Shown here: piece by piece, positions 12,322-52,646 of the stretch
How positions within the stretch are numbered: position 1 is the stretch's first letter
How the letters are laid out: every line of letters starts with the position of its first letter
NCBI GenBank assembly: GCA_902762385.1
Contig: CACWNQ010000002.1
Span: 1 to 64,000 of the forward strand
Length of the DNA stretch: 64,000 nt
Reading direction: 5' to 3'
From: an uncultured Bacteroidales bacterium
Lineage (GTDB): Bacteria > Bacteroidota > Bacteroidia > Bacteroidales > Muribaculaceae
Translations under genes and position numbers: made by a program
The notes under the pieces: model-generated
The model's database searches: none
Seen by the model: only the letters and a program-made list of their open reading frames with translations
What the model was told of the DNA's origin: nothing

Positions 12322-13734
12322 TTATACTTTGATGATGCGCATGTGTGCCTTAGGGTAGCGCAGCACTAGGCATGAGGCCTCGGTGAGCACTGTTGCATCG
12401 ACGTTGCGCACTCCACTGGCCTTGAGGTTGAGGGTCTCGGCGCTGAAGGGCACGTGGGTGTACTTCTGCAAGTACTCTGGGTCGATAATCATGCCAGCAT
12501 CCTGCATTCCACACTCGTCGAATACCTCGCTCAGCAGCACATAGAGCGTGCCGAACTTCGAGCGCAACTCGGTGAAGTCGATGCCCCACTTGGTCACGGT
12601 GTCGCTAGCAGTGATTACTCGGTTATAGTCGAGCTTGTTTAGGCTGCCTATGAGTTGCGAGCCGCCAATCAGAATCTTACGCTTGCTGCCGGCATTGCCA
12701 GTGAATGCCTCGCGCATGAGGTCGATGATGGTCTCCTGCGAGAATCCCTCGTCACCATAGGGGAACTCCTTGCCGGCCTGGTGCCATATGCCACCGGTGA
12801 ACATCACGTTTTCCTTCTTGTTGTTGTCCCACACGCGAGCCTTCACACCGAAGAGGAAACTCTTCTCCATGCCCAATCGCATGTCGTAGATGGCAGCTTC
12901 TTCCTGATCGTTCATAGTCCACTCCACCTCCTTGTTTGCAAGCTTGTGCATAGTCGATTCCTCGACCTGCATCTTAAATATCTGGCAAAATTGCTGTGCC
13001 TTCTGTGGCAGAGACTCAAACTGCGGCGACATGACATCGAGTTCGGTCGCAGCACGACCCATGCGAATGAGCACGGCACCACGCGAAATGGAAGGTACAC
13101 ATCCCTGCTGGTCGCCAATCTTCTTCCCGTTCACGGCCTGCACGCGCAGTCCATTGTTAGAGTCACGCGACAGCACATAAAGCACCAGTTCTTGCTGGCT
13201 TAGGGTGACACCGTCGGGTTCATAGCCATAGTTGCCTTGCACAAGAATAGTGTCGGAGGTGTCAAAAATCTCATCATTGGCAGTTGCAAGCACAGGGCAG
13301 GTACTGTCGGCACCGGCGTCACCGGCATCGGGCTCGACATAGGCCTGACTCAACGTTGTGAAAGTTGGCTTGGTGTCGACGTTATGGTAATCGACAATCA
13401 TGCTCCCTGAGTGTTTTGAGCCTGCACAGCGCGAGAGCTGGTCGATGGGTGTCGCCATAGGGCGAATTTTCACAATCTGCTGGTCAATCTCATTGAGCAG
13501 CAATCCAGGGGCCGCCTCTCGAGTGATGTCGGTGGTGAGTGGTTCGTCCACCACATGTTTGCCACCTGCCACGCCGCCTATCACAATGGCAAGCATGGCA
13601 TTGTGGTCGCCCATGTAGCAACCTCCCAGAATCAGCATTATCACAATTGCCAGCAACAGCATGAGAAGCTGGCGATGGGCCTTGACCCAATTGCGCGCAT
13701 TCTTGGCGCGCCTGATAGTGTTTTTGAATAGCAT
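12322..13734 (-). CDS. Phage-type major capsid protein (SU10/HK97-like) with N-terminal membrane segment
   Basis: A predicted 470-aa protein. I choose ATG 13734 (MLFKNTIRRAKNARNW) because the longer reading frame upstream only translates a GA-rich repeat and untranslated spacer. From about residue 65 the protein reads like a tailed-phage major capsid protein of the SU10/DUF5309 kind: a PGLLLNEIDQQIVKIRPMATPIDQL start, a long helical/beta body with many polar acidic segments, and GSKRKILIGGSQLIGSL near the C-terminus. Odd: residues 1-21 are strongly basic, and 22-39 form a hydrophobic segment ending in a lipobox-like LILGGC (Cys39), then a second hydrophobic patch (47-57). Capsid proteins normally lack this. 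It is the second gene of unit A and has no phage neighbours. The capsid call is from recognition, not a search. Confidence 0.6.
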   Translation of the reverse strand: MLFKNTIRRAKNARNWVKAHRQLLMLLLAIVIMLILGGCYMGDHNAMLAIVIGGVAGGKHVVDEPLTTDITREAAPGLLLNEIDQQIVKIRPMATPIDQLSRCAGSKHSGSMIVDYHNVDTKPTFTTLSQAYVEPDAGDAGADSTCPVLATANDEIFDTSDTILVQGNYGYEPDGVTLSQQELVLYVLSRDSNNGLRVQAVNGKKIGDQQGCVPSISRGAVLIRMGRAATELDVMSPQFESLPQKAQQFCQIFKMQVEESTMHKLANKEVEWTMNDQEEAAIYDMRLGMEKSFLFGVKARVWDNNKKENVMFTGGIWHQAGKEFPYGDEGFSQETIIDLMREAFTGNAGSKRKILIGGSQLIGSLNKLDYNRVITASDTVTKWGIDFTELRSKFGTLYVLLSEVFDECGMQDAGMIIDPEYLQKYTHVPFSAETLNLKASGVRNVDATVLTEASCLVLRYPKAHMRIIKV

Positions 13735-13880
13735 AGAAATTAAGTTTTTTAAAAATAGTGTTGTTGAATAATTAAAATGTAGTGACAAGCCGTGCCTTGT
13801 CCGAAATGGGCGTGTCAAGTTGAGCAGTTGAATAGTTGAGTTGTTAAAGAGCCCCCTCTCCCCTCTCCCCTCTCCCCTCT
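13735..13880 (-). other. Intercistronic spacer of unit A with GA-rich repeat
   Basis: A 146-nt gap between the stop of the small acidic gene and the capsid-type start. It contains a 28-nt heptamer array (13853-13880), then an A/T-rich segment with no hairpin terminator that I can see. Both genes are probably cotranscribed, with the capsid-type gene translated from its own start. Confidence 0.6.
13853..13880 (+). repeat. Heptamer tandem array CCCCTCT x4
   Basis: Four perfect 7-bp units CCCCTCT, flush with the TGA stop (minus strand, 13883-13881) of the preceding gene. On the minus strand this is G5/G4/G4/G4 tracts separated by AGA, a canonical G-quadruplex pattern that would be present in the mRNA. 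Confidence 0.95.
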
Positions 13881-14255
13881 TCAATCCCAAAAGCTTCGCT
13901 TGCGATACACCGGGAAGTTCACTGGTTTCGGGGCCGATTCATCCATTTTTGTTGCTGTCTCGATCACTTCGTTACGGCCTCGCACGTAACCTGCCGCCTC
14001 GGCATTCTTGATGTCCTCGTCGTGATTGAGAGCGTTGACAATAAGCTTTACAAAATTCTCACCCGGAGTCTTTCCCGCCTCAAGCGAGTCGATGATTGCT
14101 CTTGCCGACGTGGCAATGCTCTCGCTCACTCCCAGCTTCTCGAGAATCGTCGCTACAGCATCTGGCTGAGTAGCGTCGTCGTCATGTTGCGACTCGAGTG
14201 CAGCATCATGTTGCAGTTCATCGCATGGTTGCTTGGTGATTTCGTCTTCATTCAT
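13881..14255 (-). CDS. Small acidic protein preceding the capsid gene (possible scaffold)
   Basis: A predicted 124-aa protein from ATG 14255 (MNEDEITKQP). The N-terminal third is very acidic (Asp/Glu/Gln-rich). A predicted helical middle follows (VATILEKLGVSESIATSARAII), then a basic tail ending VYRKRSFWD. I do not recognise a named family. A short acidic helical protein with a basic tail encoded directly upstream of a major capsid gene fits a scaffolding or head-decoration role, but that rests on position and composition only. First gene of unit A, about 50 nt downstream of the shared 16-mer promoter. Confidence 0.6.
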   Translation of the reverse strand: MNEDEITKQPCDELQHDAALESQHDDDATQPDAVATILEKLGVSESIATSARAIIDSLEAGKTPGENFVKLIVNALNHDEDIKNAEAAGYVRGRNEVIETATKMDESAPKPVNFPVYRKRSFWD

Positions 14256-14310
14256 TACAATTAACAAATTTAAGGGTTAATAAAATCGGTGCTTACTAAT
14301 TATCACGTTG

Positions 14311-14357
14311 CAAAGTTAGAACCGACGGGACCCAAGAAACCACATTAAAAAAACACA
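14311..14357 (-). promoter_or_regulatory. Shared 16-mer promoter of phage-type unit A
   Basis: On the minus strand TGTGTTTTTTTAATGT (14357-14342) is followed by exactly 23 nt and then TAACTTTG (14318-14311), a -7 box. The same 16-mer at the same spacing stands before units B (32277-32323) and C (52600-52646). The conservation exceeds what the general promoter consensus needs, so the 16-mer is probably a regulator or special sigma contact site. Confidence 0.85.
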
Positions 14358-14602
14358 ATCTACACAAGCAGCTAATATCACTATTAATCAGCTACATATC
14401 ATTGAGCTAAGTAGTACTTGATTATACATAACTCTCACACAAACACCTCATGAATTGCACTTAAACTTTATTATTTCAACAACAAAAAAGGCAAACTCAA
14501 CTTGGTAGATTAAAAACGTGTGTTCTTCTATGTTAAGGCCAAGTTTTGTCTATCTGATTTAATAATGTGTTATTAATGTGCTATTTTTGCAAATAATTTC
14601 AT

Positions 14603-14610
14603 TATCTTTG
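14603..14610 (+). promoter_or_regulatory. -7 box of the LytS-type kinase; possibly leaderless
   Basis: TATCTTTG ends only 4 nt before the ATG at 14615. If transcription starts at the usual distance the mRNA would begin at or just before the start codon. Confidence 0.55.
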
Positions 14611-14614
14611 CACT

Positions 14615-15691
14615 ATGGGCAAGAAACTTACTTTTAACCGAACCACTCTCATCCACCTGTTGTGCTGGGGACTGCTACTGGCATTCCCGCTCTTTACCTA
14701 CCGGCAGAACGACACCATGACCGACATGTTGCGACACTATCTGCGTTCGATAGGAGGTACTATGGCATGGATGGTAATTTTTTACTTAAACTATTGCTAT
14801 CTTGTGCCAAAGATGCTCTTTGAGAACAAGCGCAAGCGTTTTATCGCCTACAACTTCCTGGCTATATTTCTACTTGTGGCTACCATGACATGGTGGTGGC
14901 ACCTGATGGGCAATCTGTTTCCCAGCTCAATGCCCAATCCTGCAAAATTTAACGCACCTCCCAAGTGGACTCGTTTTGTGCAAATGACATTGATGCTTAT
15001 CCTTGTAGTGGGATTGAGTGTGGCTATTCGCATGAGTCAGCGCTGGCACAAACTTCAAGAAACAAAAAAAGATGCTGAGCGCATTCGTACCGATGCCGAA
15101 CTCAAGAACCTGCGCAACCAGCTCAACCCACACTTCCTGCTCAACACTCTCAACAACATTTATGCCCTAATTGCATTTGATCCTGAAAAAGCTCAAACGG
15201 CAGTGGGCGAGCTAAGTAAACTCTTGCGGCATGCTCTCTACGACAACCAAAAGCGATTCGTTCCACTCTACAAGGAGGTGGAATTTATCAAGAACTATAT
15301 CGAACTGATGAAGATTCGTGTTACCAACAACGTGAAAATCGACACCAGCATCAATATCGACAATGACGATTCAACACCCATTGCACCCCTCATCTTCATC
15401 TCTCTAATCGAGAACGCATTCAAGCATGGCATTTCGCAGGCGGGAGATGGTGAGATTAGCATTGCAATGAGCAATGACGATGATAAGATAATATGCGAGA
15501 TTATCAATACCAACCACCCAAAGCACGACAACGACAAGAGCGGCTCGGGCATTGGACTTGAACAGGTGGCAAAGCGACTTGAACTCATGTATCCCGGACG
15601 CTACGATTGGCAAAAGGGTATTGATAGCGACACCAATAAATATTTCTCTAAAATAATTCTTTACAATGATAATAAAGTGCGCAATAATTGA
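14615..15691 (+). CDS. LytS/YehU-type sensor histidine kinase
   Basis: A 358-aa membrane kinase. Four hydrophobic segments occupy the first 150 residues (LIHLLCWGLLLAFPLFTY, GGTMAWMVIFYLNYCYLV, FLAIFLLVATMTWWWHL, MTLMLILVVGLSVAI). A linker follows, then the His_kinase domain with NLRNQLNPHFLLNTLNNIYAL, where the His of NPHFL is the phosphoacceptor. The HATPase has the N box LIENAFKHGI and G box GSGIGLEQVAKRL. No large sensory domain is present. It overlaps the LytTR regulator by 26 nt, so the two form one module that phosphorylates and activates that regulator. The signal is unknown. Confidence 0.95.
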   Translation: MGKKLTFNRTTLIHLLCWGLLLAFPLFTYRQNDTMTDMLRHYLRSIGGTMAWMVIFYLNYCYLVPKMLFENKRKRFIAYNFLAIFLLVATMTWWWHLMGNLFPSSMPNPAKFNAPPKWTRFVQMTLMLILVVGLSVAIRMSQRWHKLQETKKDAERIRTDAELKNLRNQLNPHFLLNTLNNIYALIAFDPEKAQTAVGELSKLLRHALYDNQKRFVPLYKEVEFIKNYIELMKIRVTNNVKIDTSINIDNDDSTPIAPLIFISLIENAFKHGISQAGDGEISIAMSNDDDKIICEIINTNHPKHDNDKSGSGIGLEQVAKRLELMYPGRYDWQKGIDSDTNKYFSKIILYNDNKVRNN

Positions 15692-16376
15692 CGACGAGCC
15701 ATTGGCAATAGAGCTGCTGGTGAGTTATGTGAAAAAAATACCGTTCATGGAACTGCACGGCAAGTATTCTAATGCTGTCGATGCCATGAAAGGCATTGCC
15801 GACGACCCCGTCGAACTTGTGTTCCTCGACATCCAAATGCCTGAACTCAACGGGCTCGAACTCTCGCGCATGCTGCCCGAGTCAACTCGAGTGGTCTTTA
15901 CCACAGCATTTGAGCAATATGCAGTCGACGGATACCGAATCAATGCTCTCGACTACCTGCTCAAACCCATTGCCTACCCCGAGTTTCTCGAGGCATGCAA
16001 CAAGGCGCTGCAATGGTTCATGATGGTGCAGCAAGCCGAGGAACCACGCACACCCGAAGCCACAAGCATCTTTGTGAAGAGTGAGTACAAACTGCTGCAA
16101 ATCGACCTCGACGACATACGCTATATCGAGGGTCTGAAGGACTATGTGAAAATCTATACCGAGCAGTCGCCCCACCCCATCCTGTCACTGATGAACATGA
16201 AAGCCATTGAGCAAATGCTGCCATCATCGAGATTCATCAGGGTGCACCGCTCCTACATCGTGCAGAAGAGCAAAATCAAGGAAATCGACCGCAACCGAAT
16301 AGTCTACGACGATGAACTCTACATCCCCATTGGCGACAGCTACAAGCAGGCTTTCCTCGACTTCTTGGGACAGTAA
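15666..16376 (+). CDS. LytTR-family response regulator
   Basis: A 236-aa DNA-binding response regulator paired with the overlapping kinase. The receiver domain (1-120) has the acidic pair IDDEP, the phosphoacceptor Asp in LVFLDIQMPELNG, and the conserved Thr and Lys (VVFTTAFEQYA, LDYLLKPI). The LytTR domain (about 140-236) has the pattern IRYIEGLKDYVKIYT, RFIRVHRSYIVQKSKI and PIGDSYKQAF. It likely binds direct repeats at target promoters; the two CotH genes immediately downstream are candidate targets by position only. Confidence 0.95.
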   Translation: MIIKCAIIDDEPLAIELLVSYVKKIPFMELHGKYSNAVDAMKGIADDPVELVFLDIQMPELNGLELSRMLPESTRVVFTTAFEQYAVDGYRINALDYLLKPIAYPEFLEACNKALQWFMMVQQAEEPRTPEATSIFVKSEYKLLQIDLDDIRYIEGLKDYVKIYTEQSPHPILSLMNMKAIEQMLPSSRFIRVHRSYIVQKSKIKEIDRNRIVYDDELYIPIGDSYKQAFLDFLGQ

Positions 16377-16471
16377 ATCGCCTCGCGCGATATAAAAATA
16401 CTATTTTAGTGCAATAGATGCACGGCATTCAACGTTTTATAAGTTAGGGAAAATAGGCTCTTTCTTATAGA

Positions 16472-18208
16472 ATGTTGATTTGTTGTTTACATAAGACCCG
16501 TTCACAAAGCACCCGCAATGCGATGGTGCTGGCTGTGTGGTTGCTCACGGTCATCAGTGCTCAAGCGCAGGTGATTATCAACGGCAATCGGGCCTTTAGC
16601 GACAACTGTTCCAACATCATCCTCTATTCCATTCCTCAAGAGTGTTTCGGCAGCGACTTTACTGCAGTAGTTCAAGTCGATACTGCCTGCCACTGGCGAA
16701 ACATCACAGTCAACGGCAAATCGCTCACCAACAACCCCATCACATTTGAGGATGTGAGTGGCGACAAAGTCTATATCTTGAGAGCAATTGATGGACACCA
16801 GCAATTAGTCAAGCGAATCATGTTCACATTCTTGCCCATTATGAGCCTTGAGGGTGACATAGGTTATGACTACGTTGATGCCCTAGTCACGCTAGCTCCA
16901 CCCGATGGCAATACCGAGTCAGGCATGACAGCCCATGTGAAATGGCGTGGCGGATACACCAACGGCGAGGGTCGCCACAAGCGCAACTACAGTATTAAGT
17001 TTGTCGATGAGAATGGCAACAAGCAGAACCGCAGATTGCTCGGCATGCGTCGCGACAACCACTGGAAACTCGACGCTGCGCAGGTCGACCTATCACGTGT
17101 GCGCAACCGTGTAGCCACCGAGCTGTGGCTCGACATGGCACGTGAACCCTATTACTACGATGATGCCCCCGACGCTATCATGGCTGCACGTGGAAAACCA
17201 GTCGAGGTGTTTACCAATGGTGGCTACATGGGCATTTATTACCTGCTTGAGAGCATCGATCGCAAGCAGTTGCAAGTAAAGAAATATGACGAGGAAGCAC
17301 AGCAATTTCATGGCATGATTTGGAATGCCACAAGCTGGACCAAGGTGGCAGCTTTTAAGTCTTCACCCAATTATAATAACAACAATGCTGAATATAGCAG
17401 TTTCATAGTAGAATACCCCGACTTCGAAGAGGTTAACCCCACCAATCACCAGGACCTTTATAACGCTGTGCACTTTGTCGCTTACGGTTCAGTCAATAGC
17501 TTCAATGCCAAAGCCCACACCTACTTCGACATGCCGGTAATCATCGACTATGCTATCCTAAACCAGTTGCTAACCTCGATTGACAATGAGGTTAACAACA
17601 TCTATTGGGTAATCTATGACTGCCAGGTCGACAAGAAACTGACCCTTGCGGCATGGGATCTTGACTGGTCGCTTGGAACCGACCGTAACTCACCCACTTT
17701 CAGAGGTGAAAGAGCACAGCCCGACTACGATTTTGAGTTCTCGAACCGAGTGCTTTACATGCTACAAATGCATAACTGCATCTACTACAGGGAGATGGTA
17801 AACCGTTATTGGGAACTTCGAAAAACTTGGCTCAGCGTGCAGAGCCTCACAGAGCGCGTGAACAACGCCGTCAATCTTTTAGTACAATGCGGTGCTATGG
17901 CACGAGAGCAGGCTCGATGGAGTGGCGACAGCGATATCAATGGCCTACCACTCGACATTGTGGCCGAGAAAGATTATATCATCGACTGGATTAAGAAGCG
18001 GTTGGCGTTTCTCGACCGTACCCTCATGCGACACCCTTACGACGTGGATAGCGACGGTTCAATCACCAGCTCCGACATTGTTGCCATAACCCAGCATTTG
18101 CTCAAGGGGGGCAGCTATAACCATAACCTCGACATCAATGGCGATGGTCACGTCACAGCCAACGACCTATACTTGATTTATCATTATATTCTCGACGAAA
18201 TAAAATAA
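16472..18208 (+). CDS. Secreted CotH-family protein with C-terminal dockerin-like repeats, 1
   Basis: A 578-aa exported protein. The signal peptide is about 1-33 (ends SAQAQ). A short beta domain follows, then the CotH kinase-like domain: HVKWRGGYTNGEGRHKRNYSIKF, LLGMRRDNHWKLDAAQVDLSRVRNRVATELWLDM, and the catalytic-type LAAWDLDWSLGTD. The C-terminal 60 residues hold two Ca-binding dockerin/EF-like loops (DVDSDGSITSSDI, DINGDGHVTANDL). CotH homologues are atypical protein kinases that phosphorylate secreted proteins; activity here is inferred. The next gene is a paralogue 5 nt away. The ATG at 16472 is used although the basic N-terminus is longer than usual; M18 could also serve. Confidence 0.85.
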   Translation: MLICCLHKTRSQSTRNAMVLAVWLLTVISAQAQVIINGNRAFSDNCSNIILYSIPQECFGSDFTAVVQVDTACHWRNITVNGKSLTNNPITFEDVSGDKVYILRAIDGHQQLVKRIMFTFLPIMSLEGDIGYDYVDALVTLAPPDGNTESGMTAHVKWRGGYTNGEGRHKRNYSIKFVDENGNKQNRRLLGMRRDNHWKLDAAQVDLSRVRNRVATELWLDMAREPYYYDDAPDAIMAARGKPVEVFTNGGYMGIYYLLESIDRKQLQVKKYDEEAQQFHGMIWNATSWTKVAAFKSSPNYNNNNAEYSSFIVEYPDFEEVNPTNHQDLYNAVHFVAYGSVNSFNAKAHTYFDMPVIIDYAILNQLLTSIDNEVNNIYWVIYDCQVDKKLTLAAWDLDWSLGTDRNSPTFRGERAQPDYDFEFSNRVLYMLQMHNCIYYREMVNRYWELRKTWLSVQSLTERVNNAVNLLVQCGAMAREQARWSGDSDINGLPLDIVAEKDYIIDWIKKRLAFLDRTLMRHPYDVDSDGSITSSDIVAITQHLLKGGSYNHNLDINGDGHVTANDLYLIYHYILDEIK

Positions 18209-18213
18209 GCGTT

Positions 18214-19944
18214 ATGAATAATTACACCCATCTATCATTCCTGAAAACATTCACTGCTATAGTGCTTGCAATTATTGGCTTAAACAACACTGCAGCCACT
18301 ACAGTAATTAACGTGAATCAGTGCACAGCCTTTGCCGACTCGACTACGCACATGCTTCTAGTGTCGGTTCCTCAATCTTGGTTTGGCTCAACTGTGACAG
18401 CCTCCATTAGCAGTATCGATGCTCAAGTTCTGACTATCGATGGCATGGAGCTCGGCGAGGACAACACTTTCACTTTTACCGATATAACTGGTGATAAGAG
18501 TTGGCAAGTAACTTGTCTTGACAACAACGAAGAAACCATTCTCTACACGCTGCAGTTCACATTTCTGCCCATAGTGCACCTAGTCGGTGACTTCGGCAAC
18601 GACTACACAAGCGGCACAATGGTGCTTGCCGAGCCAGGAAAGCCTGCAAGCGAGGTGATGACAGCACAAGTGAAATGGCGAGGCCAATCAACCAACACGC
18701 CCGATAAGCACAAGCGCAACTACAGCATCAAGTTTGTAAATGCCAATGGCGAGAGCCAGAACCGTAAGTTGCTCGACATGCGTCGCGACAACCACTGGAT
18801 TCTCGATGCCGGGCAAGCCGACATGGCACGAGTGCGCAACCGTGTAGCCACCGAGCTCTGGCTCGACATGGCACATGAACCACACTATTACGACCAAGCC
18901 CCCGATGCTCTCTCTGGCGTCAGAGGCAAAATGATCGAAGTATTTCTTGGCAATGAGTATCGTGGAATCTATGCCTTAACTGAGGCTATGGATCGCAAGC
19001 AACTGCAACTCGTCAAGCATGACACTATCAACAACATTTTTCATGGTGGACTGTGGAAAACCAACTTGTTTAACGACGAGTCGGGATTCCGCTGGGCCCG
19101 TGACTTTAACAACACTCGTCCCGACTACTATGGCTTTGAAACCAAATATCCCGAGCTCGACGAGGTGTTCCCTACTAGTTATGAAGTGCTCTACGATGCT
19201 ATACATACCATAGCCCTTGCCGAGGATTACGTGACCTATAACAACGTAGTAGATAACCACATCGACATTCCAGTGGCTATCGACTACACAATCTTCTATC
19301 TCACACTCAATGCTCTCGATAACTCGGCAAAAAACATCTACTGGCTGTGCTACGACCGGGCAGTTGACAGCAGGCTAAGTATTGCCGTGTGGGACCTCGA
19401 CGCAACGGCGGGAGGTTCATGGACGCCCAACAACTGGCGACCACCCACCGTAGCCTATAACAGCTTCCGCAAACCTTACAATTGGGTATTTTTGATGTTT
19501 TTCCACAACCGCTGCAAGTATCGCCAGCAGTTCCTCGACCGATACGACGAACTGCGCACCACGTGGCTCAGCGTCGAGAGCCTTGTTAACCGATATTCCA
19601 CAGCCATCGACAGACTCATCGAGTGTGGAGCTGCCACACGCGAGCAGAACCGATGGAACGGCGACAGCGACCTCTATGGACACCCTCTCGACTTCGAAGA
19701 CGAGAAGCAGTACATTACCGAGTGGTTTACCAACCGCATGCCACTACTCGACGTGTGGATTCATCATCACTTATGCGATGTCAATAACGACGGCGCCGTC
19801 AATGCCGCTGACATTTCCACAATCTACGACTTCATAATGAATAGCACAGGCACCTATAGTGATATGCTCGACACCAACTACGACGGAGTTATCAATGCTG
19901 CCGACATCACCAGCATATATGATGTGCTGCTTAATGGAGACTAA
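18214..19944 (+). CDS. Secreted CotH-family protein with C-terminal dockerin-like repeats, 2
   Basis: A 576-aa tandem paralogue of the protein encoded at 16472, with the same architecture: signal peptide about 1-28, N-terminal beta domain, CotH core (VKWRGQSTNTPDKHKRNYSIKF, LLDMRRDNHWILDAGQADMARVRNRVATELWLDM, IAVWDLDATAGGSW), and two dockerin-like loops (DVNNDGAVNAADI, DTNYDGVINAADI). The gap of 5 nt implies one transcript. The aspartate-rich loop differs slightly from the partner (DLDATAG versus DLDWSLG), so the two may differ in activity or target. Bacteroidales do not build cellulosomes, so the dockerin-like loops may serve calcium binding or another anchor. Confidence 0.85.
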   Translation: MNNYTHLSFLKTFTAIVLAIIGLNNTAATTVINVNQCTAFADSTTHMLLVSVPQSWFGSTVTASISSIDAQVLTIDGMELGEDNTFTFTDITGDKSWQVTCLDNNEETILYTLQFTFLPIVHLVGDFGNDYTSGTMVLAEPGKPASEVMTAQVKWRGQSTNTPDKHKRNYSIKFVNANGESQNRKLLDMRRDNHWILDAGQADMARVRNRVATELWLDMAHEPHYYDQAPDALSGVRGKMIEVFLGNEYRGIYALTEAMDRKQLQLVKHDTINNIFHGGLWKTNLFNDESGFRWARDFNNTRPDYYGFETKYPELDEVFPTSYEVLYDAIHTIALAEDYVTYNNVVDNHIDIPVAIDYTIFYLTLNALDNSAKNIYWLCYDRAVDSRLSIAVWDLDATAGGSWTPNNWRPPTVAYNSFRKPYNWVFLMFFHNRCKYRQQFLDRYDELRTTWLSVESLVNRYSTAIDRLIECGAATREQNRWNGDSDLYGHPLDFEDEKQYITEWFTNRMPLLDVWIHHHLCDVNNDGAVNAADISTIYDFIMNSTGTYSDMLDTNYDGVINAADITSIYDVLLNGD

Positions 19945-20000
19945 TACGTTATGGGCTGGATTTTCAATGCTTAATAGTTGCAAAAACTCTAGTAATTAGT

Positions 20001-20008
20001 TATCTTTG
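20001..20008 (+). promoter_or_regulatory. -7 box of the small secreted protein
   Basis: TATCTTTG at 20001-20008, 15 nt before the ATG at 20024; matches TAnnTTTG. Confidence 0.6.
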
Positions 20009-20023
20009 CACAATCATCATTCC

Positions 20024-20578: not shown

Positions 20579-20631
20579 AACTGGTAATAATATATCATCA
20601 AATCATACTTTAACCCTTAAAATTCAATATT

Positions 20632-21456: not shown

Positions 21457-21491
21457 GGCGCTATAAGATAAACCTATCAAACACCCCAAAA

Positions 21492-21530
21492 AAGAGGTTG
21501 CACCACAATCCAAATGATGCAACCTCTTAT
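21492..21530 (+). terminator. Terminator of the zinc-ribbon gene
   Basis: An 11-bp perfect stem AAGAGGTTGCA (21492-21502) / TGCAACCTCTT (21518-21528) with a 15-nt loop and a T-rich tail. Confidence 0.8.
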
Positions 21531-21552
21531 TCTTGTATTATACCCTAACTTA

Positions 21553-21631
21553 AACCTGAATCGGTCATTAGGATTTATGTAATAACAGACCAAAAAATAA
21601 CCTTTCGTCGGCCTAATGACCGATTCGGGTT
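21553..21631. mobile_element. MITE-like palindromic element, short copy
   Basis: A 79-bp element with 20-bp terminal inverted repeats (AACCTGAATCGGTCATTAGG 21553-21572; its complement at 21612-21631, one mismatch). The interior matches the two ends of the 186-bp copy at 33295-33480 but lacks that copy's inner palindrome. Its right end supplies the stop codon of the minus-strand gene at 21630. Confidence 0.85.
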
Positions 21632-31573: not shown

Positions 31574-31810
31574 AGTCACTTTGTTTTTAAAGAATTAATG
31601 AAATTAATAACACATGAAATACTCTCTCCTCTCACCTCTTCCCTCTTCCCTCTTCCCTCTTCCCTCTTCCCTCTCACCTCTTCCCTCTCACCTCTCACCT
31701 CTCACCTCTCACCTCTTCCCTCTCACCTCTCACCTCTCACCTCTTCCCTCTCACCTCTCACCTCTCACCTCTCACCTCTCACCTCTTCCCTCTCACCTCT
31801 CCCCTCCCTA
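31574..31810 (-). other. Intercistronic spacer of unit B with long GA-rich array
   Basis: The 237-nt gap between the M15 peptidase stop and the portal start consists mostly of the heptamer array 31628-31809, plus a short A/T-rich segment with no hairpin. The genes are probably one transcript with an unusual purine-rich spacer. Confidence 0.65.
31628..31809 (+). repeat. Heptamer tandem array (CCTCTCA/CCTCTTC), about 26 units
   Basis: Units of 7 bp run in one phase from 31628 to 31802 (25 units), ending with a degenerate CCTCCCT (31803-31809). One A separates it from the stop codon of the M15 gene (CTA at 31811). The two unit types are interspersed. The minus strand has four GGG tracts separated by AAGA at about 31641-31670, a G-quadruplex-prone pattern. 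Confidence 0.97.
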
Positions 31811-32276: not shown

Positions 32277-32323
32277 CAAAGTAACAATCAGCATCGTCTA
32301 GTAAACAACATTAAAAAAACACA
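32277..32323 (-). promoter_or_regulatory. Shared 16-mer promoter of phage-type unit B
   Basis: On the minus strand TGTGTTTTTTTAATGT (32323-32308) stands 23 nt upstream of TTACTTTG (32284-32277), a -7-like box. It is identical in sequence and spacing to the elements of units A and C. Confidence 0.85.
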
Positions 32324-44633: not shown

Positions 44634-44698
44634 TGTGAGACTCTTAAACTTGTAAGTATAAGTATTAGATTATTAACATTCAATAAATTTTGAAGTTT

Positions 44699-46477
44699 AT
44701 GAAAAAAACATATTTATTAGGACTTGCTGGTCTCGCATTGCTCTTCGCTAGTTGCAACGACATGCTCGATGTGAATCCACGCGACAAGTTCACTAATGAT
44801 CCCGAATTCTGGAATGACCAGAACAGAGTATTGAATTATACCAATACTATGTATTCTTACAATTTCTCGGGATATGGTACCGGTATTGAAGATCCTTACT
44901 TCAGCAGTTTGACCGATGACCAAGCCAACCCTGAATTTGACAATTGGACATTTACCAGTGTTCCAGGCTCTTCGGGCTACTGGTCTAATCCTTACACCGA
45001 GATTCGTCGCTGCAACTATTTGCTCGACAACATGCAGACTTCTACTATTGCCGATGCCACTAAAAACAGGTTCTGTGCTATTGCTCGCCTGATGCGTGCT
45101 CGCAACTATTTCCTACTTGTGAAACGCTATGGCGACGTGCAGTGGCAAGATCATGCGATTACCGACGTGAACGATGAAATCATTAAGGGCCCACGCGACG
45201 ACCGCGACTTCGTGATGGACAAGGTGCTTGAGGACATTAACTATGCTATCGCCAACATTGGCTCGGGCGACAAGGCTTCGTGGAACAAAGACCTTGCTCT
45301 GGCTATGAAGAGCGACATCTGCCTCTATGAGGGCACCTACTGCAAGTATCGCACCCAGGCCGACAACGGCAAGAGTCCCGACAACGCTCGTGCACAGAAG
45401 TATCTCAACGAGTGTGTTAACGCTTCGCAGCAACTGATGGAAGGTGGATATGAGCTCACCAAAAACTATGGTGAGATTTACAACTCTATCAACCTGAGTA
45501 ACAATAAAGAAGTTATCTTCTACCGCAACTATGAGAAGGACATGCTCGGTCACAGCACTGTTGACTACACCAGCGGTTCTACTGCTCAGCGCGGTATCAC
45601 CAAGGACGCTATCGACGCATTCCTCTTCCTCGATGGCAAGCCATTGGCTACCACAACTATGGATAAGAGTGACAAGCCTGAGAGAGTGCCTTACTTCATG
45701 ATTGGCCTCGACGGCAAAATCGTTAAGACCGAAGATGGACGCGACTCTATCCGCGTTGATTCTGAGGAAAATCCACTTTGGGTTTACTCAATGGAGCAAC
45801 CATTTAGCGTTCGCGACAAGCGCCTCTCGGTAATTGTTGACAAATTCCTTGCCTTCAAGGGTTACGGACATGCCCGCACTTGGCTCGCCGAGATGACTTC
45901 GTCTACTGGCTACACCATTGGCAAGTACTACACCACTGCTATGGGTGCTTCTCCACAAGAGCAGCTCACCTACTGCAACGAGATTGGCAAGGGCTACACC
46001 GATGCTCCTATCTACTACCTCTCGCGTGTTCTCTTGAACTATGCTGAGGCTAAGGCAGAGCTTGGCAACGCCTCTCAGGCCGACCTCGACAAGAGTGTTA
46101 ACCTGCTCCAGGTGCGTGCTGGCCTTCCTGGCATGACTCTCAATCCCGAGGCCGACCCAGCCAACACCTTTGGCGTTAGCAGCCTCATTTGGGAGATTCG
46201 CCGCGCTCGTCGCTGCGAGCTCATGACCGACGGCTTCCGCTACTGGGACCTCGTGCGCTGGCACATGCTCGACAAGCTCGACACCAGCAAGTATCCCGCC
46301 ATCCGTCTAGGTGCTAACTTGAGTGATGTTGAGGGTTGCGAAGTTGCACTCGATGGTGGATATGCTGTTCCTTACACTGCTACCCGCACATTCGACAAGA
46401 AGTACTACTTCTATCCAATCCCTTCTAGTCAGATTAATGCTAGCCAAGGCGGCACTACTCAGAATCCAGGTTGGTAA
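44699..46477 (+). CDS. SusD/RagB-family nutrient-binding lipoprotein 3
   Basis: A 592-aa surface lipoprotein, partner of the SusC at 41265. I start it at ATG 44699; the TTG at 44690 lengthens it by only three residues. The signal peptide has lipobox LFASC (Cys19) followed by NDMLDVNPRDKF, a typical RagB/SusD start. Family motifs include NRFCAIARLMRARNYFLLVKRYG and SLIWEIRRARRCELMTDGFRYWDLVRW. A strong hairpin terminator follows at 46529-46563. Confidence 0.95.
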   Translation: MKKTYLLGLAGLALLFASCNDMLDVNPRDKFTNDPEFWNDQNRVLNYTNTMYSYNFSGYGTGIEDPYFSSLTDDQANPEFDNWTFTSVPGSSGYWSNPYTEIRRCNYLLDNMQTSTIADATKNRFCAIARLMRARNYFLLVKRYGDVQWQDHAITDVNDEIIKGPRDDRDFVMDKVLEDINYAIANIGSGDKASWNKDLALAMKSDICLYEGTYCKYRTQADNGKSPDNARAQKYLNECVNASQQLMEGGYELTKNYGEIYNSINLSNNKEVIFYRNYEKDMLGHSTVDYTSGSTAQRGITKDAIDAFLFLDGKPLATTTMDKSDKPERVPYFMIGLDGKIVKTEDGRDSIRVDSEENPLWVYSMEQPFSVRDKRLSVIVDKFLAFKGYGHARTWLAEMTSSTGYTIGKYYTTAMGASPQEQLTYCNEIGKGYTDAPIYYLSRVLLNYAEAKAELGNASQADLDKSVNLLQVRAGLPGMTLNPEADPANTFGVSSLIWEIRRARRCELMTDGFRYWDLVRWHMLDKLDTSKYPAIRLGANLSDVEGCEVALDGGYAVPYTATRTFDKKYYFYPIPSSQINASQGGTTQNPGW

Positions 46478-46789
46478 TCAACTTGCTGAAACAAAGCAGA
46501 ATTCTGCTCTAGTATAACATAACATCTCGAGTGGCTGCATCGTGTTGATGCAGCCACTCTTGTTTATTCGTCATACACCACAAAAATCGAACAAAAGAGG
46601 CGGTTTTTTCGTTCTATTTTTGGCGGCACAATCATCACAATCGCCTTTTCTCAACCACATTACAAATTATTACACTTTTGATTTATCAACATTTTTTTAA
46701 TTTTTTTAGCGACTAAGACACATTTTTTCTTTTAGATTTTTTTGCATAAATCAAAAAATATCTTCAAATTTGCACTTTGATTTAATAAC
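46478..46789. other. Intergenic region between SusC/D operons 3 and 4
   Basis: No gene is visible. It holds a strong terminator at 46529-46563, an A/T-rich tract, and a weak -7-like box CAAATTTG at 46765-46772 before the fourth SusC. Confidence 0.7.
46529..46563 (+). terminator. Terminator of SusC/D operon 3
   Basis: A perfect 13-bp stem GAGTGGCTGCATC (46529-46541) / GATGCAGCCACTC (46547-46559), loop GTGTT, then TTGTTT. Confidence 0.9.
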
Positions 46790-49700
46790 ATGAGAAAATT
46801 TTGTATAAAAAACGAGGTTGGCTGCGTTAGTGCTGGCATGTGGAGCTCCTATTGGCACTGCCTCGTGGCAGAGCACTGGCTTTACTGCAAGCGCGCAGAA
46901 CAACAAAGTGACCGGTGTCGTTCGTGACGGCAACGGTGAGCCGCTAATCGGTGCCACTGTTCAAGTGAAGGGCACTAACCGTGTCACTGCTACCGACATC
47001 GACGGCAAGTATTCAATCCAGGCAGCTCCTGGTAGCACCTTGGAAATCAAGTATGTGGGCTCACCCACTAAAGAGGTTCGCGTTAGTGGCAACACCATGG
47101 ACATCAGCATGGACGATGCCAACAACACCCTCAACGAGGTGGTAGTTACAGCCCTCGGTATCAAGAAAGATCGCAAGTCGCTCGGTTATGCCGTTGAGGA
47201 CTTGAAGGCCGAAGAGCTTATGCGTAACAAGAACACCAATGCCATCAACTCGCTCGCCGGTAAGATTGCCGGTGTGAGCGTTACTCAGTCAAGTGGTGCC
47301 GCTGGTTCGGGTGCTCAAATCATCCTGCGTGGTGGTACTTCACTCGAGCGCGACAACCAACCTCTGTTTGTTGTCGACGGTGTTATCTATGACAACTCGG
47401 CATCGGTAATCGGTAACTCAGCATTCGACGGTATGCTTTCTACTGCAACCACTAATGCCAACCGTGTAATGGATATCAACCCCGAGGATATCGAAAACAT
47501 GAGCGTGCTGAAAGGCCCTGCCGCTTCGGCACTTTATGGTTCGCGTGCTGCCAACGGTGTTGTTATCATCACCACCAAGAAAGGTCAGGAAGGTCATGTT
47601 GAAATTAACTTGAACGCTAAGTACATCACCACTTGGGCTAAATATCTGCCTGAGACTCAGAAGAAGTACAAGCGCGGTTACATCGAGCAGCACTTCAATG
47701 CCGATGGCTCATTCAAGGACTTCAGCTACGACGATCGCTCTTACAACGCTTGGGGTGCTCCTGCAGCCGCTGGCGAGGAGAGCTTCGACAACATTGGCAA
47801 CTTCTTCCAGCACGGTGGCGCTTGGGACACCAACCTGAGCATCAGCGGCGGTACTAAGACCGGTAGCTTCTTCCTCTCGGGTTCGTTCTACGATCAGGAC
47901 GGTATCATCCCAACCACTGGCTATAAGAAAGCTACATTCCGCTTCAACGGCGAGCAGAAGTATAAAATCTTCACATTCGGTGCCAACGTAGCCTACAGCC
48001 AGGCTCGCACCGTGAAGACCCTCACCAGTGCACAGCTCTATGGCGATGCTGGTGGTGGTACTATGTACTCGGTTTACAACTGGAACCCATTTGACGACAT
48101 GAGGCACTATCTCAACGAGGATGGAAGTCGCTACATTCTGCGTCCCGACCTCGATCCATGGGATGAGCGCAACAATCCTTACTGGATTCTCAATAAGGAC
48201 CGTCTCACCGATAACACCGAGCGTTTCACCGGTAACTTCAACATCAAGGCCGACCTCTTTGACTGGTGGTGGGTAAGCTACCGCATGGGTATCGACTCTT
48301 ATACTACCGAGAACGCCAACCGCCTCGCTGCTGGTGGTACTCACAAGGAGTTGTGGAAGAATGGTATGTATAGTGAGAACTCACTCCGTTATCAATACCT
48401 CTCAACCAACTTGATGACCAACTTCAACAAGCAATTTGGTGACTTCAACTTCAACTTGATGCTGGGTACTGCTACCGAGTACACCAAGAACACTCGCAAC
48501 TCGCGCATGGCTTGGAACTTCCAGGTGCCCGACTTCTTCTCGTTTGACAATGCTCTGAAAGAGGACCGCGACTTCAGCAACTACAAGAGCCGCAAGCGCC
48601 TCGTGGGTGTGTTTGGCGAGTTCCGTGTTGACTGGCGCAACGCCATCTTCTTGACTGTTACAGGACGTAACGACTGGTCTTCTACTCTGCCTAAGGAGAA
48701 CCGTAGCTACTTCTATCCATCAGTAAGTGGTGCTGTTGTATTCACCGAGCTCATGGGCGACGCTCGTCCCGACTGGCTCACCTTCGGTAAGATTCGCGCT
48801 AGCTGGGCACGCGTGGGTAAAGACACTAGCCCCTATGTTACCAACACCTATCTGTGGCCCGTTGGTACCTATCTGAATGGCATGACTGGTGTGGGTAACA
48901 CCTGGACAACTGGTAACCCCTTCCTCAAGCCTGAGATCACTGAGTCTACTGAGATTGGTCTTGAGATGCGTTTCTTGAACAACCGTCTGCACTTCGACTA
49001 CGCGTTCTACACCAACAACTCTTACAACCAAATCATGGAGCCACGCCTCTCGAACTACATTGGCTACATCCTGCGCAAGGTTAACGCCGGTGACGTTTAC
49101 AACAAGGGTATGGAACTCACCATCGGTGGTATACCCGTTCAAACTCAGGACTTCACTTGGGAGACCAGCTTGAACCTCTATGGCAACCGTGGTACTGTTA
49201 AGAACCTGCTCGATGGTATGAACATCCTCTATGTTACCGACGTTCAGGTAGGTAGCGCTCGCGCTGCTTCGTTCAACGATGGTAACTTCATGGCTATCAG
49301 TGGTAGCGAGTTCGACCGTGACCCCAATGGCAACATCGTGCTCGACACTAACAACATGCCTGTTGGTGGTACTAACGACAAGCTCGAGATTGGTAACCGT
49401 GAGCCTCGCGTGGCTGGTGGTTGGAACAACACCCTCACCTGGAAGAACTGGTCGTTCAACATGTTGTGGGAGTTCCGTGTAGGCGGTCACGTTTACAATG
49501 GTACTCACTATGCTATGGTGGCTACTGGTAACGCTAAGCTCACTGAGAATCGCGATGCCCTTACTATTAGCGGTGTTCACGTAACTGGTCAAGATGCTGA
49601 TGGTAATAATGTATATAGCGGTGTTGAGAACTACACCTTCGAGGCTGGCAAGCTCTATGAGTACAATGGCAAGCAGACTCCAGGTGAGTGGATTATCAAT

Positions 49701-50006
49701 AACTACTACCAGACCTACTATCTGCGCGAGAGTGCAAACTTCATGAAGAAAGTTAACGCTCTGCGTCTGCGCACCATCTCTCTCTCTTACAGCCTGCCTA
49801 AGTCATTGCTCGAAAAGAGCAAGTTCATCAAGGGCTGTACTCTGAGTGCTGTTGCCAACAACCTGCTGCTCTTCACCAACTACGACGGTGATCCCGAGGT
49901 TGCTGCTGCTGGTGCTGGTTCTATTGGTTCTTCTTCGGTGGGTATCGACTACTGTGGTGTTCCTTCTACATCTAGTTTCGCATTTGGTGTTAACCTCACA
50001 TTCTAA
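46790..50006 (+). CDS. SusC/RagA-family transporter 4 with frameshift in signal peptide
   Basis: A SusC-type transporter of about 1070 aa. The obvious start ATG at 46790 (MRKFCIK...) runs into the wrong frame because of an A6 run at 46807-46812. Removing one A gives a continuous signal peptide MRKFCIKTRLAALVLACG followed by PIGTASWQ. As written, the in-frame sequence before TTG 46818 is closed by a TAA at 46806. The rest is intact: regulatory domain (VTGVVRDGNGEPLIGATVQVKGTNR), plug (PLFVVDG, VLKGPAASALYGSRAANGVV) and barrel ending FAFGVNLTF. It is upstream of a SusD gene. Either a phase-variable or broken gene, or a sequence error. Confidence 0.85.
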
Positions 50007-50056
50007 TGCACCCGTTACTTTATTAATAGTTAAGAACTTACTAAACATTATAGAAT

Positions 50057-51913
50057 ATGAAATTTTTCAAAGTTTTATTGATAGCGGGTGTAGCTGCCAT
50101 GTCGCTCACTTCATGCAACGACTGGCTTGACGTTAACAACGACCCTAACACCCCAACTTCGGCCGATGCTAGCTTGAATGCACGCTGCGTTTACATGCAG
50201 CACTACAGCATTGCATCCTATATGATTCCTTCGTCCAACACCGCTTACTATTGCGGTCAGTTGGCCACTGCTTCTGGTTCTCAGCAACCTGCAGCCATGA
50301 ACTGGAACCTGGGTGGCGCCAACCGTGCCAACAATGCCCAGCAGTGGTTCCTCGTTCCCGTGGGCGGTAACTTGCCCGACCTTTATAACCAAGCTATGGA
50401 GAAGGGCGCTTACCACTATGCAGCTATGGCTTGCTACATGAAGGCCTTCGGTTTCATGAACCTTGCCGACCTCTTCGGCGAGTGCCCATTTGACGAGGCC
50501 CTTGGTGATGCTACCAATCCCAAATACAACACTGGTAAAGAGGTGTTCATGGGCTGCATCGACCTTATCGATGAGGCTATCGAGCTCTTCCAGCGTCCAC
50601 AAGATCCTGCTGTTACTGCACTGAGCGCTGGCGACATGTGGAACGGTGGTGACACTGGCAAGTGGATTAAGCTCTGCTACATGCTCAAGGCACGTTGGCT
50701 CAACCACCTCAGCAAGAAGGCTGCCGGCAGCTACAAGGATGGCAAGTATGACCAAGCCGAAATTCTTGCTTGCCTCGACAAGGCTATGAAGAGCAATGCC
50801 GACAACACCGTTGTTTACCACGAGGATAATAACAGCAGCACTTGGGACCATGAGGGATGGAACGAGCCTGTTGACTACTCAACTCTCTACTCTTGCATCG
50901 GCATGAACAACAACCGTATGTTCGTTTCGAAGTGCTTCTACGACAACCTCACCAACTTCGACAACAAGGGCATCGAAGACCCACGCGCCGACAAGTTCAT
51001 CCCATGGTGCCGCTCGGCAAGGAGTGCTAATACCCCCTCAGAGGTTAAGTGGAGCGAAGACGGCAAGTGGCGCCGCTCGCTGGGTGTTGACCTCAACAGC
51101 AACATTATCAGCACAGGTGGTCCTAAGGTTTCTACTTTCTCTAATGGAGGTTGGACCTGTGGCAATGTAGATGCTGAGCACGTTCGCGACACTCTCTATG
51201 TTCAGGGACAATCTGGTTCTACTGGCTACGGCGGTGGCAAGGACATGCTCATGCGCAAAGCAGCTGGTAATGACGCTAGCGCACTCTCGGGTGTGTTCTG
51301 GACTCGTCCAACCAGCCCAACAGTTGTTGGTTCTTATGCTGAGTGCTGCTTCATCAAGGCCGAGGTTCTCTTCCGTCAGGGCAACAAGGCTGCTGCCTTC
51401 GAAGCTTACAAGGCTGGTATCAAGGCTCACATCGATTATGTGAACAGTGTTTGTGCAATGTGGGTTGCTGGCGATGCTTCGCTCGCCGAGATTCCTTCGT
51501 TCAAGGCTATGAAACAATCCGACATCGACAACTACATGAACAACGCCATTGGTACTGCTGGTGACCTCACCATGGGTAAGATTATGACTCAAAAGCAGTT
51601 TGCTGTGTTCTTCACCACCGAGATGTGGCTCGACATGCGTCGCTTCGACTACGATCCTAGCATCTTCATGAGATGGCACAAGCCTTACATGTATGAGAAC
51701 ACCGCCAGCTACTGGACCTACTGCCCACAAGGCAAGTATCCACGTCGCTGGAACCAGGCTAGCTATGAGAAGGACTACAACGCTGCCAACCTCGAGGCAA
51801 TCGGAGCACTCGTTCCTGGCGCTCTCGACCTGCCAGTTGGTTCTAACGGCCTGTGGTACCTCAGTGACCAAATCTGCACACTCCCAGTTTGGTGGGACAG
51901 TACACAAGAGTAA
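50057..51913 (+). CDS. SusD/RagB-family nutrient-binding lipoprotein 4
   Basis: A 618-aa surface lipoprotein partner of the SusC at 46790, ATG at 50057. The signal peptide has lipobox SLTSC (Cys20), followed by NDWLDVNNDPNTPTSA, the standard start of the SusD-like_2 type. Later motifs include LVPVGGNLPDLYNQAMEKGAYHYAAMACYMKAFGFMNLADLFGECPFDEAL. A hairpin terminator follows at 51961-51993. The gap to the SusC stop is 50 nt. Confidence 0.95.
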   Translation: MKFFKVLLIAGVAAMSLTSCNDWLDVNNDPNTPTSADASLNARCVYMQHYSIASYMIPSSNTAYYCGQLATASGSQQPAAMNWNLGGANRANNAQQWFLVPVGGNLPDLYNQAMEKGAYHYAAMACYMKAFGFMNLADLFGECPFDEALGDATNPKYNTGKEVFMGCIDLIDEAIELFQRPQDPAVTALSAGDMWNGGDTGKWIKLCYMLKARWLNHLSKKAAGSYKDGKYDQAEILACLDKAMKSNADNTVVYHEDNNSSTWDHEGWNEPVDYSTLYSCIGMNNNRMFVSKCFYDNLTNFDNKGIEDPRADKFIPWCRSARSANTPSEVKWSEDGKWRRSLGVDLNSNIISTGGPKVSTFSNGGWTCGNVDAEHVRDTLYVQGQSGSTGYGGGKDMLMRKAAGNDASALSGVFWTRPTSPTVVGSYAECCFIKAEVLFRQGNKAAAFEAYKAGIKAHIDYVNSVCAMWVAGDASLAEIPSFKAMKQSDIDNYMNNAIGTAGDLTMGKIMTQKQFAVFFTTEMWLDMRRFDYDPSIFMRWHKPYMYENTASYWTYCPQGKYPRRWNQASYEKDYNAANLEAIGALVPGALDLPVGSNGLWYLSDQICTLPVWWDSTQE

Positions 51914-51960
51914 TCTCTAAGGTCATATAACCTTGGCAACAAGGTAAAACCTAAATCAAT

Positions 51961-51993
51961 AAAAGGTGTGACACACAACGTGCCACACCTTTT
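51961..51993. terminator. Terminator between SusC/D operon 4 and unit C
   Basis: AAAAGGTGTG (51961-51970) / CACACCTTTT (51984-51993) form a 10-bp stem with A and T tails on both sides, so it can end the SusD transcript (+) and that of unit C (-), whose stop codon is at 51995. Confidence 0.85.
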
Positions 51994-51994
51994 T

Positions 51995-52567
51995 CTATAC
52001 CAGTGGGTTGGGGAGACTCTGTTCCCACTCGGGGATAGTGCTCAGCAGCGAAGCGTGAAACTGGTAAGAGCCGTCGGCAGGGCGCACCACGCAGCGGGCA
52101 AGTTCGAGCTGTGGCGAGGCGCTGGCTGTGCTCATCATCAGCAGTTGGAACCCATAGTCGATAATAGCGGGATTATAGGCACCCCCACGATTCCACTCGT
52201 TGAGCTGCAGCATCGCTTCGTGACTGCATGGGTCGAGAAAAGTGGTGACGCTACGCTGCCACTCGGCAAGCTTCCACTCCACAGGCCTCACGCTCTGCTC
52301 GGGCGACGTGGCTATTACCATACCATCGCGCGTGGTTAATTCAACATCACTTGCCAGGTCCTCGATGGGCAGCAAGTGAGCAGGAGCAGTGTTTAGCAGG
52401 TGGGCATACCATTGTTTTATGTGTGTGATGAGCAGTGCATCGAGGTCAATCCCATCATCCCACTCCACTGTGCAGTCGCGACGTGGCGTCGCCAGGCGCA
52501 TTACCTGCTTCCACAGGTCGAGCATCTCACTTTCAGTTAGGTTGTAGAATTGATTGCGGTTTTCCAT
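51995..52567 (-). CDS. Unknown 190-aa protein of unit C, sharing the phage-type promoter
   Basis: A 190-aa protein I do not recognise. It has no signal peptide or membrane segment, is Trp-rich (DLWKQVM, VEWDD, QWYAHLL, VEWKLAEWQRSV, LNEWNRGG, IPEWEQSL) and mixes acidic and hydrophobic stretches, as head-tail connector or neck proteins of phages often do, but that is a guess. The reason to link it with the capsid and portal units is its promoter: the same 16-mer and 23-nt spacing, with no other match in the window. ATG start at 52567, about 26 nt of leader. Confidence 0.65.
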   Translation of the reverse strand: MENRNQFYNLTESEMLDLWKQVMRLATPRRDCTVEWDDGIDLDALLITHIKQWYAHLLNTAPAHLLPIEDLASDVELTTRDGMVIATSPEQSVRPVEWKLAEWQRSVTTFLDPCSHEAMLQLNEWNRGGAYNPAIIDYGFQLLMMSTASASPQLELARCVVRPADGSYQFHASLLSTIPEWEQSLPNPLV

Positions 52568-52599
52568 GTGTAATAAATTTTAAGCGTTAATAATCACCG

Positions 52600-52646
52600 C
52601 AAAATTACCCTACACCATTTTCCAAAAACAACATTAAAAAAACACA
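52600..52646 (-). promoter_or_regulatory. Shared 16-mer promoter of unit C
   Basis: On the minus strand TGTGTTTTTTTAATGT (52646-52631) stands 23 nt upstream of TAATTTTG (52607-52600). The third copy of the element of units A and B. It lies about 50 nt from the divergent dapF promoter. Confidence 0.85.

Follow-up and report, generated by a model that had tools for sequence, protein, structure and literature searches.

Scattered phage-type genes behind a shared promoter element point to a likely gene transfer agent-like system in Bacteroidales

Why should genes for a phage-like particle lie singly or in pairs among ordinary chromosomal genes, with the same 16 nucleotides at the same distance before each group? 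The question is posed by a 64,000-nucleotide stretch of DNA (the window) from an uncultured Bacteroidales bacterium of the family Muribaculaceae (GenBank assembly GCA_902762385.1, contig CACWNQ010000002.1, positions 1 to 64,000), in which three minus-strand units, A, B, and C, carry phage-type genes behind the 16-mer TGTGTTTTTTTAATGT. We think it likely that these units belong to a domesticated phage gene set whose product would be a DNA-packaging, phage-like particle, making the set a Bacteroidales system akin to gene transfer agents (GTAs). With less confidence, we lean toward a fuller version, in which Bacteroidales have an ancient, independently domesticated GTA that occurs in at least seven families. 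Its loci, each with one or two genes, would be united only by a short promoter code, the code and its reader having diverged in step so that each lineage holds its own private key. Throughout, G000 denotes this genome and other G numbers denote other Bacteroidales genomes; C stands for a contig, L for a fetched stretch or contig, and f for a family label.

The 16-mer occurs exactly three times in the window, always on the minus strand (14342-14357, 32308-32323, and 52631-52646), where 0.06 copies are expected by chance and none of 100 shuffles gave three; allowing up to two mismatches adds no further copy within these 64 kb. A -7 box follows each copy after 23 nt (Table 1), and when the window's 96 T[AT]NNTTTG boxes are compared, this 16-mer alone recurs at that distance. 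The original prediction, made from the letters of the window, had named an identical 16-mer, an exact 23-nt spacing, and these three positions, all of which were reproduced. In Bacteroides, the primary sigma factor uses TAnnTTTG as its -7 box and TTTG as its -33 motif (PMC7366714).

The capsid, portal, and M15 peptidase genes, recognized as such in the same prediction, are genuine homologues of phage genes as judged by family profiles (Table 1). The major capsid protein (MCP) begins at the ATG at 13734 rather than at the TTG of the mechanical open reading frame (ORF), and among solved structures its profile matched a VP1 major capsid (E 2e-8). The small acidic protein encoded ahead of it weakly matches phrog_22323 (E 0.008), the family of a phage gene directly upstream of a phage MCP gene. 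The 190-aa protein of unit C had no family match in profile-library searches, and its profile found just two unrelated weak matches among solved structures; its gene adjoins that of the MCP or the portal in compact clusters and lies near the MCP gene in phages, which makes the protein a candidate head-tail adaptor. A prophage would be a contiguous phage genome with integration and replication genes. Here the phage-type genes stand singly or in pairs, and the ten flanking window proteins belong to ordinary families: BT_2262-like, histidine kinase, CotH, MscS, two DUF805, SusD-like, diaminopimelate epimerase, DNA polymerase III clamp loader, and glycosyltransferase. A 26-copy tandem repeat of 7 bp (CTCTCAC) lies at 31622-31806, between the endolysin and portal genes, and CTCTCAC-like runs also accompany other virion genes, both in this genome and in relatives.

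Table 1. Promoter elements and virion-type genes in the 64-kb window
Feature	Position	Strand	Unit	Remarks
Promoter, TGTGTTTTTTTAATGT + 23 nt + TAACTTTG	14311..14357	minus	A	
Small acidic protein, 124 aa	13881..14255	minus	A	25 D+E / 13 K+R; scaffold candidate
Major capsid protein (MCP), 470 aa	12322..13734	minus	A	SU10_MCP E 1e-47
Promoter, TGTGTTTTTTTAATGT + 23 nt + TTACTTTG	32277..32323	minus	B	
M15 peptidase, endolysin type, 132 aa	31811..32209	minus	B	phrog_894 E 1e-37
Portal protein, 463 aa	30182..31573	minus	B	phrog_156 E 3e-35, P22_portal 4e-16
Promoter, TGTGTTTTTTTAATGT + 23 nt + TAATTTTG	52600..52646	minus	C	
190-aa protein	51995..52567	minus	C	relative of gp54 of Bacteroides phage BF1-TP2 (profile E 5e-6)

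The set extends beyond the window. A terminase large subunit (TerL) gene at C2:79713-81686 (phrog_2 E 3e-21) has the element at C2:79649 with one mismatch and a weak -7 box, CTTCTTTG, and the gene for an 812-aa phage-type protein at C3:121619-124054 (phrog_32516 E 1e-16) has it at C3:124106 with two mismatches; the profile of the 812-type protein found nothing among solved structures at E 1. The original prediction had staked the set on sites before terminase or other virion genes, and near-copies do precede both of these. TerL retains KARQWGGS, VAVDVG, and HDD, which we take to be its ATPase and nuclease motifs. In G163, from another genus of the same family, eight of the nine genes of the set form one 10.5-kb cluster in the order 812-type, TerL, acidic, MCP, 190-aa, portal, p149, and p147, and two contigs of the IMG/VR viral collection, L123 (end of TerL to p147) and L124 (812-type to the start of p149), hold overlapping parts in the same order. 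Profiles of p149 and p147 found these two genes in 25 and 24 of 25 genomes of the genus, including G000 (C24:15739-16632). The p149 protein of G014 and BF1-TP2 gp58, whose gene lies two genes from the phage TerL, both match phrog_27246 (E 8e-6), and p149 is a candidate small terminase or regulator. Nine genes at six loci on three contigs make up the set in this genome, with the shared promoter element at five of the six. In this genus the p149-p147 operon is preceded by a conserved motif of its own, AATTTGCATTTTACC-like ... TATCTTTG (in G000 on C24 just above 16632), and in some other families the region upstream of p149 carries palindromes such as TTGTAATATTACAA (stretches compared: L282-L285, L296, L303, L360, L365, and L419). 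These motifs are a second, different control point.

Within the genus (G000 and 24 other genomes), MCP, TerL, portal, and 812-type genes are each present in 24 of 25 genomes and mostly in single copy; the genomes in which one of them is missing, G020 and G023, are 74 and 62% complete. The 16 genomes of other families in the same draw gave no match. Some members of the genus keep portal, acidic, MCP, and M15 genes together and 812-type and TerL genes together elsewhere, and in G000, G001, G010, and G011 the set is split further. Genes flanking loci A, B, and C in G000 have homologues beside the same loci in the other three of these genomes, at times on one side only and with rearrangements, and the three loci are syntenic among the four genomes compared. 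The reading frames are intact, and the seven genes tested are under purifying selection: dN/dS lies between 0.03 and 0.24 in the 33 pairs, of 39, with a computable dS, dS often being near saturation. If the genes were functionless prophage remnants scattered by genome rearrangement, their phage homology would be explained, as would the MCP genes of G007, G015, and G016, which are split or contain a stop through either assembly error or decay. We regard this as very unlikely, since purifying selection, shared loci, presence across genera and families, and the promoter likeness described below are unexpected of decay. Additional, more distant MCP or TerL copies in G008 (C283), G024 (C13), and G159 (C32) are probably true prophages of the related phage group, and those of G008 and G024, on contigs separate from the set, illustrate how different such copies look.

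Across the order, the MCP was found at E 1e-10 in 33 of 393 genomes drawn evenly (14 of 207 genera; 30 of the 326 better genomes), with carriers concentrated in families f1, f22, f28, f60, f68, f88, and f109; two weaker matches, in G043 and G335, may be phages. A search of 17 genomes for TerL and portal recovered them in members of all seven families, and public records matching the MCP are labeled Muribaculaceae, Bacteroidales, Prevotellaceae, or not at all, several of them coming from ruminants. An acidic gene, a 190-aa gene, or both lie close to the MCP gene in 17 of 19 neighborhoods, among ordinary genes such as one resembling fumarate hydratase (by eye); a twentieth neighborhood, in G197, showed no labeled ORF because of overlap in the caller. 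Dispersal can be extreme. On the single contig of G316, MCP, TerL, portal, and p149 lie at 1.395, 1.427, 1.149, and 1.294 Mb, and on one contig of G259, MCP, 812-type, and TerL genes lie at about 604, 831, and 1560 kb; gene spans are about 280 kb (G316), 433 kb (G380), and 956 kb (G259), against 64-68 kb for whole phage genomes and 10.5 kb for the G163 cluster. By eye, apparent ribosomal L21 genes lie near the portal gene in G052 and near TerL in G092 and G357, and in G283 (f60) a gp68-related gene (E 1.6e-19) lies near TerL.

A scan of viral contigs with the MCP sequence alone found nothing, and with the MCP profile it gave 102 matches, of which 80 were kept. In quick trees of selected rows (for each gene, the 34 top-scoring distinct viral rows, drawn from 82 matches for MCP and 75 for TerL), 29 chromosomal MCP rows and four compact contigs separate from 30 phage contigs with support 100 on a branch of 1.6, a length that carries a long-branch warning. 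The genus is monophyletic for both MCP (99; 10 rows) and TerL (93; 12 rows). For TerL, the 32 phage rows form one group (100), and the prophage-like row of G159 falls among the chromosomal ones. More than one change is needed for f60 and for the other f1 genera in both trees and for f22 in the MCP tree. MCP and TerL distances are correlated (r 0.81 over 24 genomes, reached in 0 of 5000 permutations; 0.95 over nine genomes of the genus and 0.86 over the 15 others). The trees fit, without proving, one old domestication. Four IMG/VR contigs listed as viral, L122, L123, L124, and L126, group with the chromosomal sets in the MCP tree, and we consider them probable mis-filed chromosomal GTA-like clusters. 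A phage satellite or other mobile element with its own capsid, parasitizing helper phages, could also be small in gene number and could enter a viral contig collection as a compact cluster. Such an element is extremely improbable here: no integrase or phage replication gene was found among the ten window neighbors examined, the genes are dispersed, loci A, B, and C are common to relatives, and the compact contigs L123, L124, and L126 group with the chromosomal set of G163.

In most lineages tested, the promoters of these scattered loci resemble one another in ways that change from lineage to lineage. We compared the virion promoters, from -40 to -20, with 2000 random intergenic sets with a TTTG box from the same genome, in 11 of the 25 genus genomes and 8 genomes of other genera. 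Start codons were shifted by hand in G001, G010, G012, G015, G045, G052, G092, G283, and G380, and G011 locus A (whose acidic ORF was not called), all p149 loci, G163, and G401 were left out, as were, outside the genus, divergent 812-type loci and the G316 190-aa gene. No random set was as alike as the virion promoters in G000, G009, G010, G011, G012, and G015, and the numbers at least as alike were 2 in G001, 10 in G019, 16 in G018, 28 in G024, and 106 in G021, so that nine of the 11 genus genomes reach 16 or fewer per 2000. Most G000 loci share TTTTTTTAATGT(T/G)G, the G018 group has TTTTTGACATGG at the portal locus and TTTTGTGCTGG at the 812-type locus, and G015 has TGTGCGATTG at three loci. 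Outside the genus, G259 has TGCGAAGTTRCGGGTTCA at three loci hundreds of kb apart, each 17 nt from the box (0/2000), G316 has CTGCCAYAAA with 18-nt spacing (0/2000), and G380 has TGCCATAAAA with 17-nt spacing (7/2000); in the fetched stretches of these three genomes, the respective element occurs at virion loci only, three in each. G092 gave 29/2000 and G049 0/2000, a result that counts for little because the match includes the -7 box itself. Lineage-specific shared elements, often at fixed spacing, are what co-evolution between a dedicated activator and its sites would be expected to produce; our inference is that such an activator contacts the DNA over -33 and acts together with the primary sigma factor.

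On this model, a dedicated activator would bind the 16-mer, whose position overlaps -33 and is fixed relative to a canonical -7 box, and would bring RNA polymerase carrying the primary sigma factor to every structural locus simultaneously. The scaffold and MCP would assemble a procapsid on the portal, and TerL would load host DNA into it; the 190-aa and 812-aa proteins would seal the neck and supply a short tail, and lysis of the producer cell would fall to the M15 enzyme. The neck and tail roles are guesses from gene neighborhood and from weak PHROG matches of a phage relative, and delivery of the DNA to kin, the usual outcome for GTAs, is assumed.

Several observations weigh against a GTA served by one private promoter code, beginning with where else the element occurs. 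The genome holds four exact copies of the 16-mer; the fourth (C4:101930) is part of a non-coding repeat and is not closely followed by a gene. With up to two mismatches, 24 genomic places match, compared with 10 in a reversed control, and a strict composite pattern matches 16 places, compared with none in the control. Virion genes lie behind two of these 16, and the other 14 are not at virion genes. The originally noted confinement of the element to three units is accordingly true of the window and untrue of the genome. Many matches before housekeeping genes had been named as evidence against the prediction, and the 14 go part of the way, yet they are mostly copies of a non-coding repeat far from ORFs: in 12 the first ORF of 120 aa or more to follow on that strand lies 532-8385 nt away, and the remaining two stand 93 nt from a 132-aa low-complexity ORF and at a contig end. 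Nine of the 14, counted by eye, belong to one repeat with CATTGA(C/T)AT..TGC after the -7 box. Among 209 ORFs of at least 120 aa in the window and 17 further stretches, which had been picked for holding the motif, seven have a relaxed form of the element within 200 nt upstream, of which five are virion genes and two are the 132-aa low-complexity ORF and a non-conserved ATPase. This ATPase gene (C15:17174-18430; AAA_25 with a helix-turn-helix region) also follows a near-copy of the element, with 22-nt spacing. As a candidate member of the set it was dropped, having any match in only 6 of 15 other genus genomes and at most 43% identity in the long ones. In addition, the p149-p147 operon lacks the shared element and has a different, conserved upstream region. 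The prediction of a scattered, GTA-like virion gene set under one regulator is supported overall, but not as regards an element private to the set, nor at the sixth locus, where the upstream sequence differs. In other genera, likeness among virion promoters is not significant in G045 (756/2000) and G052 (277/2000) and is weak in G283 (83/2000). Single-sequence searches recovered the 190-aa protein from no more than 11 of the 25 genus genomes, the MCP gene is broken in the three genomes named above, and chromosomal TerL rows fall in several groups rather than one of their own. Tail-tube and receptor-binding genes, few of which were looked for, did not turn up in this genome.

The dispersed non-coding repeat is an observation in its own right. 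It opens with the promoter-like element, continues with CATTGAYAT..TGC, and often contains low-complexity GAGTCAG-type runs; copies include G000 C1:506506, C34:29, C34:3698, C35:3407, and C4:101899 (L063, L065, L071, and L072), several of them about 0.7-1.2 kb ahead of ordinary genes. An Rfam search of nine repeat stretches found no match for the repeat and turned up only two tRNAs.

Two other readings draw on the points just listed. The 16-mer could be a mere strong variant of a housekeeping promoter that marks no regulon, as its canonical TAnnTTTG box of the primary sigma factor (PMC7366714) and its presence at the head of many non-coding repeats would allow. We doubt this: in most lineages tested the virion loci share an element with other letters, for example TGCGAAGTTGCGGGTTCA in G259, TGCCATAAAA in G380, and TTTTTGACATGG at the G018-group portal; a general sigma factor is unlikely to switch its preference for one gene set per lineage; and no copy outside the virion loci turned up in the stretches fetched from G259, G316, and G380. 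The set could also make a domesticated phage-derived particle that transfers no genes, such as a protein or DNA compartment or a lysis-coupled killing or public-goods particle. That no tail-tube or receptor-binding gene was identified here would suit such a particle, as would the outcome of using seven further phage-contig ORFs as single-sequence queries against the 25 genomes, which gave none in G000 (E 0.01) and three weak matches elsewhere, two of these being p149, which in G014 lies beside the 190-aa gene. Two of the seven, p149 and p147, were later recovered by profile; BF1-TP2 gp53, gp55, gp58, and gp59 were compared with the fetched stretches only. TerL, portal, and TerL-neighbor type proteins serve DNA packaging. 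TerL with ATPase- and nuclease-type motifs, a portal, and a TerL-neighbor type protein are conserved together, and G283 also retains its gp68-related gene, so we regard a particle without gene transfer as an unlikely alternative to a GTA-like system.

How does the set compare with known systems? GTAs are defined by caudoviricete-derived proteins that form caudovirion-like particles, package mostly random host DNA, and deliver it to other cells, and by endogenization, often at several loci, with mostly vertical inheritance and with their own genes not all packable (PMC9662315). Two of these features are found here, namely caudoviricete-derived proteins (the MCP, portal, and TerL families, with phage homologues) and full endogenization at several loci (six loci on three contigs in this genome, four separate sites in G316), and we claim, from the genes, that the set would work like a GTA. 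It resembles RcGTA, BaGTA, and BhGTA in its chromosome-fixed phage-derived structural genes, often at more than one locus and, here probably, mainly vertically inherited, and in having kept TerL (PMC9662315). BhGTA (16.3 kb) and CcGTA (14 kb) differ in having one main structural cluster, whereas MCP, portal, TerL, 190-aa, and 812-aa genes are separate here, a contrast that is milder for BhGTA, whose sole identifiable terL lies outside its cluster. The SU10-type capsid, the P22-type portal, the host phylum, and the predicted rather than observed particle also set this system apart from known GTAs. In Caulobacter, the dedicated activators GafY and GafZ, with IHF, work with the primary sigma factor at CcGTA promoters (PMC11150451), much as the putative activator would here, but in our case one short element with letters that vary by lineage marks scattered loci. 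The Faecalibacterium FpGTA likewise packages host DNA in capsids in gut bacteria, from a 10.5-kb operon of TerS, TerL, portal, scaffold, and MCP, and lateral transduction in Bacteroides differs in being attributed to a prophage; the part of that report cited here mentions no Bacteroidales GTA (PMC12946183). Among the open-access papers listed for GTAs or domesticated prophages in this order, we found no description of one.

Among phages, Bacteroides phages BF1-TP2, BKO1-TP3, and BS-TP4 all have a homologous MCP, and in BF1-TP2 the portal, TerL, gp54, gp58, and gp33 also have relatives in the set, with a weak link to gp57. Identities to BF1-TP2 are 41% for MCP, 35% for portal, and 42% for TerL (gp60), and the 812-aa protein is related to gp33 (profile E 7e-12). 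The three differ from the set in being full phage genomes of 64-68 kb, with 83 annotated features in BF1-TP2, whose MCP, portal, and TerL genes lie within 7.3 kb, and in falling across the long MCP branch described above.

This gut or rumen bacterium carries genes of an almost complete phage head, and the set has the appearance of an old device that packages bacterial DNA and may also share it. High gene exchange among Bacteroidales has been reported (PMC12946183), and if particles are made, several families of this dominant gut and rumen order would own a GTA, a concrete route for part of that exchange. It would also be a GTA lineage apart from the three families classified in PMC9662315, with gene dispersal at an extreme, and a natural experiment in regulon evolution, in which scattered genes are united by a binding site that changes with the lineage. 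The annotation of viromes is affected as well, as some of these clusters are listed as viruses in a public viral contig collection.

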